DNA from: Eubacteriaceae bacterium
Lineage (GTDB): Bacteria > Bacillota > Clostridia > Oscillospirales > Acutalibacteraceae
Length of the DNA: 64,000 nucleotides
NCBI GenBank assembly: GCA_021770095.1
Contig: JAETRQ010000009.1
Span: 1 to 64,000, forward strand
Reading direction: 5' to 3'
Numbering within the stretch: the stretch's first letter is position 1; the number at the start of each line of letters is the position of its first letter. The position numbers and the translations under genes were made by a program. Below, one piece after another: positions 52,994-58,757 of the stretch. The notes beneath the pieces are model-generated. The model made no database searches and had not been told where the DNA came from. It worked only from the letters and a program-made list of their open reading frames with translations.

Positions 52994-53125
52994 ATGGGTT
53001 GCGGATGCAATAGCTGTAATGGTTCTTCATGGATCATCATCCTTATCATCATCCTTTTACTCTGCGGTGGTTGCGGTAATACTTTTGGTAACAACGACTG
53101 CGGTTGTGGCTGTGGCTGTAACTAA
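52994..53125 (+). CDS. 43-residue Cys/Gly-rich single-helix membrane peptide
   Basis: A very short gene with a strong purine-rich ribosome binding site (AAAGGGGGTT) about 8 nt upstream. The product starts MGCGCNSCNGSSW, has one Ile/Leu-rich helix (residues about 13-23), then CGGCGNTFGNNDCGCGCGCN. Nine or ten Cys residues flank the helix. The architecture recalls the tiny YjcZ-type sporulation membrane peptides, but with Cys clusters that could bind metal or crosslink in a spore layer. A terminator follows at once. The function is inferred only. Confidence 0.7.
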   Translation: MGCGCNSCNGSSWIIILIIILLLCGGCGNTFGNNDCGCGCGCN

Positions 53126-53180: not shown

Positions 53181-53260
53181 AGTCAAAGAAAGTCAAAAAA
53201 GTTCTTGACTTTTACTGACCTTTGTGCTATTGTAATTACAGAAGGTCAAAGAAAGTCAAA
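53181..53260 (+). promoter_or_regulatory. clpC operon promoter with CtsR boxes
   Basis: The promoter is TTGACT (53205-53210), 17-bp spacer, TATTGT (53228-53233). CtsR heptad pairs flank it: AGTCAAA-gaa-AGTCAAA (53181-53197) upstream, and GGTCAAA-gaa-AGTCAAA (53244-53260) near the start site. A degenerate inverted copy overlaps the -35 (about 53205-53222). The known CtsR site is GGTCAAA-N3-GGTCAAA, so the operon is repressed by its own first product. Confidence 0.88.
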
Positions 53261-53301
53261 GTCAAATGACCTTGTTTAGTATGAAACGGAGTGATAGGAA
53301 A

Positions 53302-53748
53302 ATGAAAATCAGCGATGTAATTGCAGATATGATTCTGGATATGTTTGATGATGAAACACCTACTGTTCAGATTCAGCGCAATGATTTGGCGGCAAAACTC
53401 GGCTGTGTTCCAAGTCAGATAAATTATGTTATAACATCAAGATTTACTCCTGAACAGGGATACAGAATTGAGTCAAGACGCGGTGGCGGCGGATGTATTA
53501 TGATAACCCGTGCCAGCAAAGATGATTCCATTGTGTCCTTAATCAATTCAATCGGGAATTCTATTGAAGAAAAAACAGCAAAATCTTATGTATATAATCT
53601 AAATTATCAGGGCCTTGTAAGTGATAAGGCAGGTCAGATGATGATGGCTGTTATTTCAGATAATAATTTTAAAGGATTGCCGAATGAAATTAAGGATACA
53701 ATACGTGCAAATCAATTTAAACAAATGCTTTTAGCATATATCGATTAA
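53302..53748 (+). CDS. ctsR: Transcriptional repressor of class III stress genes CtsR
   Basis: 148 residues. The conserved CtsR core is clear: KLGCVPSQINYVITSRFTPEQGY followed by the glycine-rich thermosensing wing SRRGGGG. CtsR represses clp genes at normal temperature. The start is set at ATG 53302, with GGAA and an earlier GGAG upstream; the longer in-frame ATG at 53281 would add residues not usual in the family. It heads the ctsR-mcsA-mcsB-clpC operon. Confidence 0.95.
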   Translation: MKISDVIADMILDMFDDETPTVQIQRNDLAAKLGCVPSQINYVITSRFTPEQGYRIESRRGGGGCIMITRASKDDSIVSLINSIGNSIEEKTAKSYVYNLNYQGLVSDKAGQMMMAVISDNNFKGLPNEIKDTIRANQFKQMLLAYID

Positions 53749-53760
53749 GGGGGATTTATT

Positions 53761-54288
53761 ATGTTATGTCAACATTGTAATCAGAATGAAGCAACAACTC
53801 ATATTAAAAAGAATATAAACGGTCAAAAAGAAGAAATGCATCTGTGCAGCCACTGTGCAAGCGAACTTGGTGTTATGGATGAATTCAGAATGCCCGGCGT
53901 GCATGATTTGTTCGGTGATTCATTCCTTGGTAATTTTCTTGGTGCCGGAGTAGCGGCAATGAATTCACTTGCCGGTGTTGACAGGTGTCAAACCTGCGGC
54001 TCATCTTTTAATGATATTGTCAGCAGCGGACATATCGGATGCAGTGATTGTTACAGTAAATTTGAGGAAAAACTTGAACCGTCCATCAAAAAAATTCATG
54101 GCAAAACAAAGCATATCGGTAAATTTATTTCTTATGAAGATAAAACTGAAAATAAAAAGGAAAAAATTCAAAAAGATGACAGTCTGGATGCATTAAGAAA
54201 GCAGCTTGATCAGGCAGTTGCAGAACAAAGATTTGAAGATGCAGCAATACTGAGAGATAAAATTAACGATATTACAGGAGAAAAATAA
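53761..54288 (+). CDS. mcsA: McsA, zinc-binding activator of McsB
   Basis: 175 residues. Four CxxC pairs in two zinc sites (CQHC/CSHC at about 3-39 and CQTC/CSDC at about 77-98) precede a C-terminal UVR motif (LDQAVAEQRFEDAAILRDKI). McsA normally activates the arginine kinase McsB and links it to ClpC. GGGGGATTT precedes the ATG, and the stop overlaps the mcsB start (TAATG). All zinc ligands seem intact even though the partner McsB is degenerate. Confidence 0.93.
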   Translation: MLCQHCNQNEATTHIKKNINGQKEEMHLCSHCASELGVMDEFRMPGVHDLFGDSFLGNFLGAGVAAMNSLAGVDRCQTCGSSFNDIVSSGHIGCSDCYSKFEEKLEPSIKKIHGKTKHIGKFISYEDKTENKKEKIQKDDSLDALRKQLDQAVAEQRFEDAAILRDKINDITGEK

Positions 54289-55022
54289 TGAGCAAATTTA
54301 ACAGCGGTGAAGTTCAGAATACAGATGTAATTCTCAAATCAAAAATCAATCTCGCAAGGAATCTGGATAAAATTCCTTTTCCTTGCAGAATGAGCAACGA
54401 ACTGCGAAAGACGATATGCAAAAAAATATTTGCATCTATACAGAATTCGAAATTCGGCGGCGAATTTGATTATGTTGACCTGAGTGTAAAAAATGATTTG
54501 GACAAGAGAATCCTTGCCGACAAAGGATTAATTACACAGGAAATGGCACAGCAGACTCTATATTGTGCTGTGCTTGTATCAAAAGATGAAAAGATGAGCA
54601 TAATGCTTTGTGAAGAAGAGCATATGATTCTCAATATTATTTGTGATGGTGCGGATATAAAAAAAGCATATGATATTGCAGACAAAATCGACAATATAAT
54701 TATATCGGATCTAAAGATAGCATTTGATAATAAACTTGGATTTCTCACATCGAATCCAATGCACCTCGGCAGCGGAATGAAAGCATCCTATCTGCTTTAT
54801 CTGCCTGCCATTACTGTTACAAATATGGATGCCAAGCTGACCGGTATGGTGAGTAAGCTGGGATTTGAATTAAAGCCTATGTTTGACGGCAATAACTATT
54901 TATATGAATTGTCAAACAATATCAGTATGGGCATCAGTGAAGAAAATGCAATTGATAATTTGACCGCTGTGTGCAGCCTGATTGTTAAACAGGAATACAG
55001 TATAAGAGAAAATACAAATTAG
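54288..55022 (+). CDS. mcsB: Truncated, apparently degenerate McsB-like arginine kinase
   Basis: 244 residues of the ATP:guanido phosphotransferase fold; typical McsB has about 350-360 and a C-terminal phosphoarginine-binding part that is missing here. Several active-site positions differ from the family: the SxRxRxxRN motif reads KSKINLARN (Lys19, Asn21), the EExH-x-R segment is EEEHMIL (Leu115 for Arg), and TSCPT/GLRAS reads TSNPM/GMKAS (Asn156 for Cys, Lys165 for Arg). The frame is clean and lies within the operon, so this is not a sequencing break. It may be a scaffold rather than an active kinase. Confidence 0.85.
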   Translation: MSKFNSGEVQNTDVILKSKINLARNLDKIPFPCRMSNELRKTICKKIFASIQNSKFGGEFDYVDLSVKNDLDKRILADKGLITQEMAQQTLYCAVLVSKDEKMSIMLCEEEHMILNIICDGADIKKAYDIADKIDNIIISDLKIAFDNKLGFLTSNPMHLGSGMKASYLLYLPAITVTNMDAKLTGMVSKLGFELKPMFDGNNYLYELSNNISMGISEENAIDNLTAVCSLIVKQEYSIRENTN

Positions 55023-55072
55023 GCAGGGGATAACTGCATTATAATTATGCCCTGCCTTATGGAGGGATAAGT

Positions 55073-57490
55073 ATGTATAGATTTAATTATTTTACACAGA
55101 AAGCAAATGAAGTTTTAAATCTTGCAATCAAAGCAAGTGAAAATTTCGGTCACAATTATATCGGCAGTGAACACATTTTGTTAGGTCTTGTAAAAGAAGG
55201 AGCAGGGCTTGCTTATTCAATTCTTGACGATAAAGGTATTACTGCCGAAGATATAGAAGGTTTTATTGAAAACAATATCAGTGTCGGTAATCCGACAAGA
55301 TTGACGCCTGATGATTTTACCCCAAGAAGCAAACGTGTACTTGATAATGCTTTTCAGATTGCACGCGGAATGCTCAACAGTTTTGTTGATACCGAACATA
55401 TTTTGATGGCACTTTTGCAGGAAAGTGACTCATACGCAGTACGGTTTCTGAATTCCTGCGGTATAGATGAGCGAGCATTATTTGAAGAAATTGTTGCCTC
55501 AATCGGCAGAGGAACACCCACGGCAGAAAATACAAGACGCGGAAAAAATTCCAAGTCCAAAACTCCGACACTTGATGAGTTCGGCAAAGACCTGACTGTC
55601 TTGGCAAAAGAGGGAAAGATTGACCCTGTTATCGGCAGAGAAGAAGAAATACAGAGGGTTATTCAGATTCTGTCCAGACGAACGAAGAATAATCCTTGCC
55701 TTATAGGTGAACCCGGAGTTGGTAAAACCGCTATTGCCGAAGGCCTTGCGCTCAAAATTGTCAGGGATGAAGTACCTGAACTTTTATCAGGGAAAAAGAT
55801 TGTTGCCCTTGATTTAACCTCTATGGTTGCGGGTACAAAATACCGCGGCGATTTTGAAGAACGAATCAAAAAAGCAATGGATGAAGTCAGAAATGCAAAA
55901 GATGTTATTCTTTTTATTGATGAAGTTCACACAATAATGGGTGCAGGTGCTGCCGAGGGTGCAACGGATGCAGCGAATATTCTGAAACCGTCACTTGCCC
56001 GTGGAGAAATTCAGGTTATCGGTGCAACCACTATTGATGAATACAGAAAAAATATTGAAAAAGATGCTGCACTTGAACGCCGTTTTCAGCCGGTAACAGT
56101 CGGTGAACCTACTGAGGAAGAAACGATTGAAATTCTCAAAGGACTGCGTGATAAATATGAAGCGCATCACAAAGTCAAGATTACAGATGACGCAATTGTG
56201 AATGCAGTAAAAATGTCCTCACGTTATATTGCTGACAGATTTTTGCCGGACAAGGCGATTGACCTGATTGATGAGGCGGCATCAAGAGTAAGGCTGAAGG
56301 CTTATACAGTTCCTGATAATCTCAAGGAAATGGAGAAAGAATTAAAATCACTTGAAGAAGAAAAAGCATCAGCAGTTCGCAGACAGGAATTCGAACAGGC
56401 CGCAGCAATAAGAGATAAGGAAAATAAACTGCAGACTCTGCTTGATGAAGAAAAAGAGAAGTGGAAAAATCTATCCTCTCATCAGGTAAAAGAAATTTCT
56501 ACCGAAGATATTGCGAATGTTGTGTCCCAGTGGACAGGAATTAATGTGAACAGCATAACAAAAGAAGAATCAGAACGACTTATTAATCTTGAAAAAGTTC
56601 TGCACGAAAGAATTGTAGGTCAGGACAAAGCGGTTTCAGGCGTTGCCAGAGCAATCAGACGCGGCAGGGCAGGACTTAAAAATCCAAAGCGTCCTATCGG
56701 TTCATTCATTTTCTTGGGTCCTACCGGTGTCGGAAAAACAGAACTTTGCAAAACGCTTGCAGATACGATGTTCGGTGATGAAGAAGCCATCATCAAACTG
56801 GATATGAGTGAATATATGGAGAAACATACTGTATCAAAATTAATTGGCTCACCTCCGGGTTATGTTGGATTTGATGAAGGCGGACAGCTGACTGAAAAAA
56901 TCAGACGCAAGCCATATTCCGTAGTTCTTTTTGATGAGATTGAAAAGGCGCATCCTGATGTCTTTAATATGCTCCTTCAGATACTTGAAGATGGTGTTCT
57001 GACGGATTCACAGGGCAGAAAAGTAAGTTTCAAAAATGCGGTTATTATTATGACATCCAATGTCGGCGCCTCAAAAATCACCGAACCGCAGAAGTTTCTT
57101 GGATTTGGAGAAAAGGGTGATGAAAATGCGAATATTGAGCAGCTGGTTATGGCTGATTTAAAAAAGACATTCAAGCCTGAATTTCTCAACCGTGTTGATG
57201 AAATTATCGTTTTCTCGCAACTTGAAAAGTCCGATATTGAAGAAATTGCAAAACGTATGCTTTCATCTCTGAAAAAACAGGTGTCGCAGCTCGGAACAGA
57301 AGTTACTTTTACAGATAAAGCAATTTCTGCTGTTGCAGATGCCGGATTTGATAAAGTATACGGTGCAAGACCGCTTCGCCGTGCAATCCAGACGCAGATT
57401 GAAGATAAACTTTCGGAACTGATTCTTGAAAGTAAACTCGGTGAAACCTGTACGGTAGATTTTCAGGACGGCAAATTTACATTTGAATAA
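55073..57490 (+). CDS. clpC: ATP-dependent Clp protease ATP-binding subunit ClpC
   Basis: An 805-residue AAA+ unfoldase. Two N-terminal Clp repeats (about 1-145) are followed by AAA-1 with Walker [10 protein letters not shown] and Walker [11 protein letters not shown], an M-domain with UVR-like [17 protein letters not shown] (about 440-456), AAA-2 with GPTGVGKTE and [11 protein letters not shown], and the D2-small domain with [11 protein letters not shown]. It feeds substrates to ClpP, guided by adaptors such as McsB or MecA. A GGAGGG ribosome binding site precedes it. Last gene of the CtsR-controlled operon. Confidence 0.96.
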
Positions 57491-57628: not shown

Positions 57629-58093
57629 TTATTTCAGTTTTTTTCGGATTTTCTGCAGTTTTGTTCTTACAGCAGAAGCAGTGCAGTCGAGCATATCGCC
57701 GATTTCACTGCTGTTGTATCCGTACAATTTCAGCAAAAGCAGTTGTTGTTCTTTGGGTTTGAGTTTTTCAATCGACAGTCTGATGTCCAGCATGCTTTGA
57801 AAATCATTTTTGTCGGGTGCATCAAAATCCTCAGGAATAATCATTGTTTCAAGTATAATTTTGTTTTTGCGTATTCTGTCATTTCTGACATTTTTAGCAA
57901 TTGAGTAAATCAATGCTTTTTTGTTTTTTATTGCATAATTGTTTGGTATCCATGCCCATAACTGCATAAACACCTGCTGCGTTAAGTCTTCGGCATCTTC
58001 GTTAGTGAAATCTTTTTTGAAGAAGTTTATTATCTTTTTATAATAATCGTCATAGATTTCATTGAAGATGATCAGTGCGTCATTTTTCATCAT
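57629..58093 (-). CDS. ECF-type RNA polymerase sigma factor
   Basis: About 154 residues with only regions 2 and 4. Region 2 includes EDAEDLTQQVFMQLWAW; region 4 has GYNSSEIGDMLDCTASAVRTKL. The start is one of two adjacent ATGs (58093/58090) overlapping the end of the upstream soluble-protein gene, so translation is coupled. Unlike the ECF at 1092, there is no membrane anti-sigma gene downstream. Confidence 0.88.
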   Translation of the reverse strand: MMKNDALIIFNEIYDDYYKKIINFFKKDFTNEDAEDLTQQVFMQLWAWIPNNYAIKNKKALIYSIAKNVRNDRIRKNKIILETMIIPEDFDAPDKNDFQSMLDIRLSIEKLKPKEQQLLLLKLYGYNSSEIGDMLDCTASAVRTKLQKIRKKLK

Positions 58094-58757
58094 ATATAGA
58101 TAATTTTCTTGCAAGTGTTGATTTTGTCTGGATAACACTTTTAATTTTTTTGCTGCACTTTATTGTGCTTCCTGCGGCAAAATGAATGTTTTTATTCAAT
58201 AACGTTTCTTCCTCAACATCGGGAGAAAAGGTTATACTGTTGCCGCAGATTACCAGTGTATTATCCTCAAGCAGTTCTATGAACCTGTTGTCGAATTCCA
58301 TACTGTTGCCGAACGTTTTTGTATGTTCAACAACAAATCCAAGTTCATAGGCAATACCGCTTATGGCAATGAATTGGAGCTTTGCGCCTTTTTCATAAAG
58401 CGTAATGCCGCTTGAGATAAGTCTGACGGGATTATCCATATCAAATTTTTTGATAAATACAGTGCCGCTGGTGCTGTAGATTATGTTGGGGTCATAATTG
58501 TTTTCATCAATTACTGTTATCCCCGAAATTTCACTGATATATGCATCCTTGTCAACAGATAATTCATTCGCAATATTTTTTACTTTAATATTACTGTATG
58601 ATTCGATAACATCCGGTGAAGGATTAATCGGAATAAGGACAGTGGCTGCGTTTATTAATCCTATATTGTCCAATGCTGCTGCAGTATAATTTCTTAAATC
58701 AACAATAGCAGCGTTTAATATACGTTTCTTTTGTTTGTTTTTGCTGAAGATTGACAT
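58080..58757 (-). CDS. Uncharacterised soluble protein cotranscribed with an ECF sigma
   Basis: 225 residues with a Lys/Arg-rich start and end (KNKQKKR and KCSKKIKSV), an otherwise beta-rich middle and no membrane segment. No family is recognised. GAAGGAG precedes its ATG, and an ECF-type promoter lies just upstream. It overlaps the ECF sigma gene by 14 bp, so it may act as a soluble anti-sigma factor or sensor, but that is context only. Confidence 0.7.
   Translation of the reverse strand: MSIFSKNKQKKRILNAAIVDLRNYTAAALDNIGLINAATVLIPINPSPDVIESYSNIKVKNIANELSVDKDAYISEISGITVIDENNYDPNIIYSTSGTVFIKKFDMDNPVRLISSGITLYEKGAKLQFIAISGIAYELGFVVEHTKTFGNSMEFDNRFIELLEDNTLVICGNSITFSPDVEEETLLNKNIHFAAGSTIKCSKKIKSVIQTKSTLARKLSIYDEK

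Follow-up and report, generated by a model that had tools for sequence, protein, structure and literature searches.

The best-described relatives of the gene studied here are the McsB arginine kinases of Bacillus subtilis and Geobacillus stearothermophilus (PDB 6tv6, 6fh1). McsB normally marks damaged proteins through phosphorylation of arginine. McsA has two roles in B. subtilis, as activator of the kinase and as the factor that holds McsB away from CtsR bound to DNA; once oxidized, it frees McsB, which then strips CtsR from DNA while the kinase is inactive (PMC5506225). Six arginines are essential to the B. subtilis enzyme: the exchanges R29K, R31K, R34K, R125K, R176K, and R207K each left no phosphoprotein signal, as did R337K in the C-terminal domain, and C167S is a kinase-inactive laboratory allele (PMC7235348). 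The C-terminal domain holds a phosphoarginine (pArg) receptor formed by R337, D338, and R341 with S285 (PMC8370763). On the side of McsA, its C-terminal Arg is needed for stimulation in B. subtilis (PMC7235348), and the loop of Staphylococcus aureus McsB onto which McsA docks is Y147 to Y153 (PMC12467219). We met no description of McsB pseudokinases in the open-access literature searched; passages of one article use the word pseudokinase of Pkn5 and arginine kinase of McsB (PMC5177608), and in another McsB occurs only among the references (PMC12599244).

We analyzed a window of 64,000 nucleotides of DNA from a Eubacteriaceae bacterium of the gut (assembly GCA_021770095.1, contig JAETRQ010000009.1). 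The species belongs to the genus that we take to be GTDB Eubacterium_R, Oscillospirales. The features of the locus are as follows.

53181 to 53197, forward strand: CtsR-type operator 1, AGTCAAA-GAA-AGTCAAA, an exact match to RGTCAAANNNRGTCAAA, presumably the CtsR operator consensus
53244 to 53260, forward strand: CtsR-type operator 2, GGTCAAA-GAA-AGTCAAA, an exact match to the pattern
53266 to 53748, forward strand: ctsR (PF05848, 106.1 bits; PF17727, 71 bits)
53761 to 54288, forward strand: mcsA, 175 amino acids, with all eight zinc cysteines (NF053706, 127.9 bits, below its cut-off of 210)
54288 to 55022, forward strand: mcsB, putative pseudokinase, ATG start, 244 amino acids, phosphotransferase domain only
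54342 to 54350, forward strand: codons of K19 to N21 (B. subtilis R29 and R31), by alignment
54627 to 54629, forward strand: codon of I114 (R125), by alignment
54723 to 54743, forward strand: residues 146 to 152, counterpart of the McsA-docking loop (S. aureus Y147 to Y153), counted from the Cys site
54753 to 54755, forward strand: codon of N156 (catalytic C167), by alignment
54780 to 54782, forward strand: codon of K165 (R176), by alignment
54873 to 54875, forward strand: codon of K196 (R207), by alignment
55021 to 55057, forward strand: hairpin in the mcsB-clpC spacer (-17.8 kcal/mol; z, -2.1; 5 of 200 shuffles as good)
55073 to 57490, forward strand: clpC, 805 amino acids, with Clp_N, AAA, AAA_2, and UVR domains

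The open reading frames and domain matches agree with the initial annotation that mcsB occupies the ctsR-mcsA-mcsB-clpC slot as an intact frame of 244 residues: it runs without a stop codon inside, shares one base with the stop of mcsA, and is followed by clpC. Its product matches PF00217 at 131 bits (cut-off, 22.4), and this homology to the guanido phosphotransferase catalytic domain, together with the operon shared with ctsR, mcsA, and clpC, places it in the McsB homologous family. The match to NCBIfam NF002194 reaches 207 bits, below the cut-off of 385; matches to five NCBIfam McsB models end at model position 243 to 258 of 335 to 358, and alignments with the solved McsBs stop where the kinase domain ends. 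The protein shares with the Bacillus and Geobacillus enzymes a fold, a homologous phosphotransferase domain, and a slot between mcsA and clpC. In length and limits it comes close to 8wtc, an isolated McsB kinase domain (243-residue chain) crystallized with McsA; 8wtc represents a fragment of an active enzyme, whereas in the window the kinase domain is the whole natural product. The window McsB is the sole guanido-kinase match in the 2.39-Mb assembly (rated 100% complete), which holds no second PF00217 gene and so no second, complete McsB.

Some smaller features of the locus were also seen. The ctsR gene possibly starts at an in-frame ATG at 53302 (by eye), and just upstream of ctsR, positions 53000 to 53125 hold a short Cys/Gly-rich reading frame with a hydrophobic stretch (by eye). 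The hairpin at 55021 to 55057 overlaps the mcsB stop and stands upstream of the clpC start. On the reverse strand, convergent with clpC, the stretch 57629 to 58757 carries a sigma-factor-like open reading frame (57629 to 58138, the likeness judged by eye) that overlaps one of 225 amino acids (58080 to 58757).

Active-site residues were read by alignment to the 6fh1 chain and are quoted in B. subtilis numbering. The window McsB replaces R29 (K19), R31 (N21), R125 (I114), C167 (N156), T169 (M158), N170 (H159), R176 (K165), and R207 (K196), and it reads NPMH where active McsB has CPTN. Unchanged are R34 (R24), E120, E121, and H123, so one of the six essential arginines is retained. The initial annotation had already described the first motif as degenerate (KSKINLARN, in which R34 survives) and Asn156 and Lys165 as standing in for Cys and Arg, and these align to C167 and R176 as proposed; its Leu115 was off by one, since it is I114 that lies opposite R125 in the alignment, L115 falling opposite the next residue. 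Only R29K, R176K, and R207K are identical to exchanges tested in B. subtilis. Judged by alignment, the protein combines several changes at sites each of which is enough to kill the B. subtilis enzyme, and mcsB would thus encode a retained pseudokinase that lacks kinase activity.

Relatives share these substitutions, which bears out at the level of sequence the earlier suggestion of a pseudokinase. We searched 36 other genomes of the genus and obtained a PF00217 match in 33, giving 34 McsBs with that of the window; in G002, G017, and G023, PF00217 was not found, an absence not separable from contig breaks. The catalytic Cys is present in none of the 34 (Ser in 27, Asn in 7). Among the essential arginines, R29 is retained in 5 of the 34, R31 in 25, R34 in 34, R125 in 19, R176 in 1, and R207 in 22, and no protein has all six together: one species keeps five, 17 keep four, 7 keep three, 3 keep two, and 6, including that of the window, keep one. 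E120, E121, and H123 occur in 31, 30, and 34 of the 34, respectively. Exchanges of the laboratory type are found naturally: C167S in 27 of 34, R29K in 27, R176K in 29, and R207K in 8. In comparison with the B. subtilis C167S and R-to-K mutants (PMC7235348), the exchanges are the same, but several occur at once, throughout a genus, and with receptor and phosphatase lost as well. The window protein is predicted to keep the kinase fold, and catalytic residues have gone over 34 species, as expected of a pseudokinase.

A profile of the genus McsBs extended the survey to named loci, and among the best 80 of 159, 59 had no Cys (40 Ser, 19 Asn) and the remaining 21 had Cys and the other catalytic residues; many of the 59 come from the same genomes as our numbered set. 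The named loci include Candidatus Eubacterium faecigallinarum and Clostridium sp. CAG:678, the rest being metagenome-assembled genomes labelled Eubacterium, Ruminococcaceae, Oscillospiraceae, or Clostridia and one labelled Bacteroides that is surely a mislabel. A contig scan with the window McsB alone as query gave no match.

The missing C-terminal end, put at about 100 residues in the initial annotation, is real: open frames of the same genus run to 330 to 368 amino acids, that of G029 (238) excepted, against 251 for the window. McsBs that end at the domain border occur in four species, namely, the window species, G029 (L048), Eubacterium sp. HAN015 (L191), and Ruminococcaceae RUG13646 (L237). 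Each of the four genes is followed by a short spacer and then clpC, and no remnant of the C-terminal domain was seen downstream of them in three-frame translations read by eye. Because three other species end at the same border, the short McsB of the window is unlikely to be a chance event or an assembly accident. In a quick tree, G029 and L237 stand together (98), and L191 belongs to a supported group with four McsBs that are all full length; in a more careful tree, the window McsB, G029, and three full-length McsBs make up a supported group of five whose inner branching is not resolved. These positions point to two or three losses of the C-terminal domain.

Such a deletion fits an earlier loss of the receptor site in the genus. 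In active-type McsBs, R337 is present in 66 of 67 and D338 in 65 of 67. Among the genus McsBs that have a C-terminal domain, R337 is found in 0 of 32, D338 in 6, and R341 in all 32, and the other 15 kinase-dead McsBs have R337 in 4 cases and D338 in 6; the S285 column is uninformative, since active McsBs vary there as well. The window McsB has no C-terminal domain and hence no RDxxRA receptor.

We also looked for YwlE, the phosphatase that takes the tag off again, using as query an alignment of six proteins (five with CTGNTCRS and one with CTGNLCRS) in 76 genomes, and the scores split into two groups, at 97.5 bits or more and at 63.3 bits or less. YwlE was found in none of the 21 genus genomes searched. 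Over the 75 genomes with an McsB, it is present in 2 of 35 kinase-dead genomes (G051 and G091) versus 38 of 40 others, the two without it being G256, whose McsB is half eroded, and G322. Counted as independent pairs, the association of kinase death with YwlE loss has five supported pairs and a median p of 0.25, a number too few for significance. The G322 McsB (L111) looks active, yet neither YwlE nor CtsR was found in that genome.

We considered whether YwlE had been overlooked in the window genome. Its sole LMWPc (PF01451) match scores 56.8 bits against the YwlE alignment (YwlE types, at least 97.5) and has the motifs CHGNICRS and DPWYT, as do the 12 other genus copies read, with slight variation in the DP motif. 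We take CTGNTCRS/DPYG to mark YwlE and CHGNICRS/DPWYT to mark the low-molecular-weight protein-tyrosine phosphatase type; the protein thus shares the LMWPc domain with YwlE and is of the tyrosine-phosphatase type. The same motif, CHGNICRS, led us to reject a short match at a contig end in G127 as a cut YwlE. Unlike active McsBs, then, the window McsB is without the Cys, five of the six essential arginines, and the C-terminal domain, and YwlE was not found in its genome. The initial annotation had left it undecided whether arginine tagging was lost or done by another enzyme. Loss is the favored reading: none of the 21 genus genomes yielded a YwlE, and all 32 proteins with a C-terminal domain have lost R337.

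The loss of McsB catalytic residues, as read from the alignments, is genus-wide and recurrent and is not peculiar to the window gene. Residues were read for 116 McsBs of the order, 34 from the genus and 82 others; the latter are G040 plus 81 of 130 non-genus matches, comprising all those below 176 bits, the 30 best, and a spread between. Fifteen of the 82 were classed as kinase-dead (loss of Cys and more). They belong to genera g25 (two), g27 (two), g28 (two), g32, and g34, to family f21 (four), to one g38 species whose five congeners read are active, and to G121, whose congener G246 is active; the least certain case, G051, has lost Cys and one Glu and has all six Arg. No frequency of kinase death follows from these counts, because the 49 non-genus matches left unread may include dead McsBs (two dead ones score above 190 bits). 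A careful tree built with the catalytic and receptor columns removed needs 8 switches to kinase death (8 to 10 in bootstrap trees), and supported branches force at least 5 in the order, long branches making some placements unsure.

In a phylum sample of 299 genomes, 281 had a match, all but that of the window at E 5.3e-54 or better. From scores alone, kinase death might have seemed confined to the order; we rejected this, as two dead McsBs of the order itself, those of G127 (1.2e-56) and G220 (1.7e-58), score equally well. Among the 12 lowest-scoring McsBs outside the order, Cys is missing in 5 and present in 7, so kinase death is not confined to the order. The five (L302, L306, L307, L308, and L309) comprise two with Ser in f84 and, in f56, one with Ser and two with Tyr; the two f84 proteins have lost R125, R176, and R207 as well.

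Next to these losses, the partners of McsB are largely kept. The initial annotation noted that the window McsA keeps its zinc ligands, and all eight cysteines are present in 34 of 34 genus members, as is a C-terminal Arg that aligns by place with B. subtilis R169. A zinc-finger Arg of McsA (B. subtilis R96) was tried as a further lost residue and rejected because it varies in active genomes (37 Lys and 21 Arg of 67). In the g25 McsAs (L077, L078), the N-terminal zinc finger is missing from the open frame read. The docking loop of McsB has a mean column entropy relative to the domain of about 0.67 in the genus versus 0.69 in active McsBs, and the catalytic columns are relaxed. With the McsA cysteines and the docking loop both conserved, the window McsB is predicted to bind McsA.

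In 33 of the 34 genus loci, mcsA has a ctsR frame before it; the remaining locus begins at the end of a contig. Compared with active-McsB genomes, genus CtsRs differ at conserved sites, with L37 changed to F in 33 of 33, E45 to Q in 30, and H101 to A, S, or G in 33 (numbering of the open reading frame, which has 10 extra residues); these substitutions could mean that the contact with McsB is altered or lost. Over the 2.39-Mb genome, the exact operator pattern occurs at two sites, both before ctsR, and a reversed control pattern at one. CtsR may therefore control its own operon alone, as far as exact sites go.

Full-length ClpC homologues of 81 to 89% identity were found in 7 of 10 sister genomes searched and not in G002, G017, or G023. 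We also considered whether the ClpC N-domain has lost its recognition of pArg. Of the columns that active-McsB genomes conserve in this domain, none is lost in over half of the genus; one Arg (at about residue 85), found in 64 of 65 active genomes, has given way to other residues in 8 of the 34 genus members and in 5 of 9 other kinase-dead genomes. Five genus genomes were searched for MecA without a match, and the four active-McsB genomes searched in the family (G149, G214, G279, and G318) lack it as well.

Outside the genus, the partners differ. CtsR is missing from 11 of 15 kinase-dead genomes, and from 2 of 10 others searched (G256 and G322), so CtsR cannot be the general partner of dead McsBs. 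The f21 genomes (L089, L090, L091, and L092) have ClpC and MecA, and CtsR was not found in them. Seven genomes of g25, g28, g32, g34, and G256 (L077, L078, L080, L081, L082, L083, and L084; six kinase-dead plus the half-eroded G256) have mcsA and a dead or eroded mcsB without CtsR or full-length ClpC, and their Clp proteins are limited to ClpE-like (named by eye) and ClpB-sized ones. As neither CtsR nor full-length ClpC was found there, the McsA-McsB pair must have a further role in these genomes. ClpE is a less likely substitute partner, because ClpE of Enterococcus faecalis needs no adaptor (PMC13125188). A protein of 217 to 219 residues follows mcsB in g25, g32, and g34; it is TPR-like in g34, has one below-cut-off match in g25, and has none in g32.

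The initial annotation proposed that the retained McsB serves as an adaptor of ClpC or CtsR, which by analogy with B. subtilis is plausible. We prefer the CtsR side of this proposal. At a probability of about 0.5, the retained pseudokinase would be the kinase-independent half of an McsA-McsB switch on CtsR, left after arginine phosphorylation was dismantled. Probably on the stem of the genus, the kinase active site, the McsB receptor pocket, and YwlE would have been lost, in an order that we infer, with CtsR, McsA, ClpC, and the McsB fold kept throughout. Later, in the window species and three others, the C-terminal dimerization and receptor domain would have been deleted, and what remained is the part to which McsA binds in other bacteria. 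McsA would hold the pseudo-McsB through its zinc cysteines; thiol or heat stress would disturb McsA and free the McsB domain, which would take CtsR off its operators, and this putative release would induce the ctsR-mcsA-mcsB-clpC operon. The switch in the window species is transferred from B. subtilis and would hold by analogy. We prefer it because its requirements, namely, the thiols of McsA, CtsR, operators, and the part of McsB that binds McsA, are all kept and everything that it does not need (kinase, receptor, and YwlE) is lost. Counting against this reading are the kinase-dead genomes outside the genus in which CtsR is missing, the CtsR substitutions of the genus, the small number of supported pairs for kinase death and YwlE loss, the exceptions to that association (G051, G091, G256, and G322), the receptor residues still present (D338 in 6 and R341 in all 32), and the 4 sister-invariant residues changed in the window McsB.

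The main rival, which strikes us as possible and yet rather unlikely, is that pseudo-McsB, together with McsA, acts as an adaptor independent of kinase activity, either activating ClpC or delivering clients such as CtsR or aggregates to ClpC or ClpX, with direct binding in place of a pArg tag. The adjoining clpC with its largely conserved N-domain speaks for it, and if ClpC rests inactive without an activator, the missing MecA would call for another one; MecA, however, is just as absent from the active-McsB genomes of the family that were tested. In B. subtilis, the mcsB C167S strain degrades MgsR faster than the deletion strain does (half-lives, 12.3 versus 17.7 min), which its authors attribute to an adaptor effect that does not depend on the kinase and may involve ClpX (PMC7235348), but ClpC activation and adaptor function of B. 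subtilis McsB depend on kinase activity (PMC5506225). The replaced N-domain Arg of ClpC argues against an adaptor as well, as do the six kinase-dead genomes and G256 that keep mcsA-mcsB where full-length ClpC was not found.

It is very improbable that the window mcsB is instead a decaying pseudogene, harmless since its operon partners carry on. Its branch is long (0.52 to 0.6), it has lost a whole domain, and of 34 positions invariant in 32 full-length sisters it changes 4, where a left-out sister changes 0 to 3. Against this, it keeps the other 30 while having only 117 of 242 majority residues, and G029 keeps 29 of 32 sister-invariant positions; the frame is intact to a domain border that three other species share, with no remnant seen downstream; and none of the 34 genus mcsBs has a stop inside its frame. 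In codon models, whose synonymous sites are saturated and whose values are therefore rough, omega was 0.067 for the quartet with the window gene, 0.068 for that with L191, and 0.125 for that with G029 and L237, against 0.067, 0.070, and 0.097 for full-length genus sets, so the window value equals that of full-length sisters. Dead McsBs of g28 and g34 gave 0.045 and an active set 0.023 (saturated), the dead sets being less constrained; a set of four active McsBs (g39/g40) was excluded as unusable at a tree length of 39. The predicted structure of the window McsB is a confident guanido-kinase fold (mean pLDDT, 89.2; pTM, 0.85), and its best PDB matches are McsB 6fh1 (6fh1_B; TM, 0.88 by query length) and the McsA-bound kinase domain 8wtc. 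We thus see no sign of the decay that the initial annotation had considered and find instead signs of purifying selection on the dead McsB; being preserved, it probably does something other than catalysis.

Scarcely credible is an enzyme of changed chemistry, in which Asn or Ser would stand in for Cys and Lys for Arg, acting on another guanidino or nucleotide substrate: E120, E121, and H123 persist in most of the genus and Arg often became Lys, but R29K, R125K, R176K, and R207K gave no signal and C167S is kinase-inactive in B. subtilis (PMC7235348), the catalytic sites vary between species, unlike those of an active site, and YwlE is gone.

Beyond the CtsR switch of the genus, we tentatively suggest, with the odds somewhat against us, that McsA-McsB is a module of two functions of which the noncatalytic one is more durable. 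The kinase would have been shed repeatedly, both within the order and in further families of the phylum, and the pair would have outlived CtsR and ClpC in some genera, where a partner or client would need neither pArg, CtsR, nor ClpC.

By sequence, writer, reader, and eraser of arginine phosphorylation were lost together in this genus. The kinase and scaffold roles of McsB are hard to part in B. subtilis; here, evolution seems to have parted them repeatedly. These McsBs would be natural separation-of-function alleles, with which the role of McsB without its kinase becomes directly testable, and an mcsB annotation alone does not imply arginine phosphorylation.
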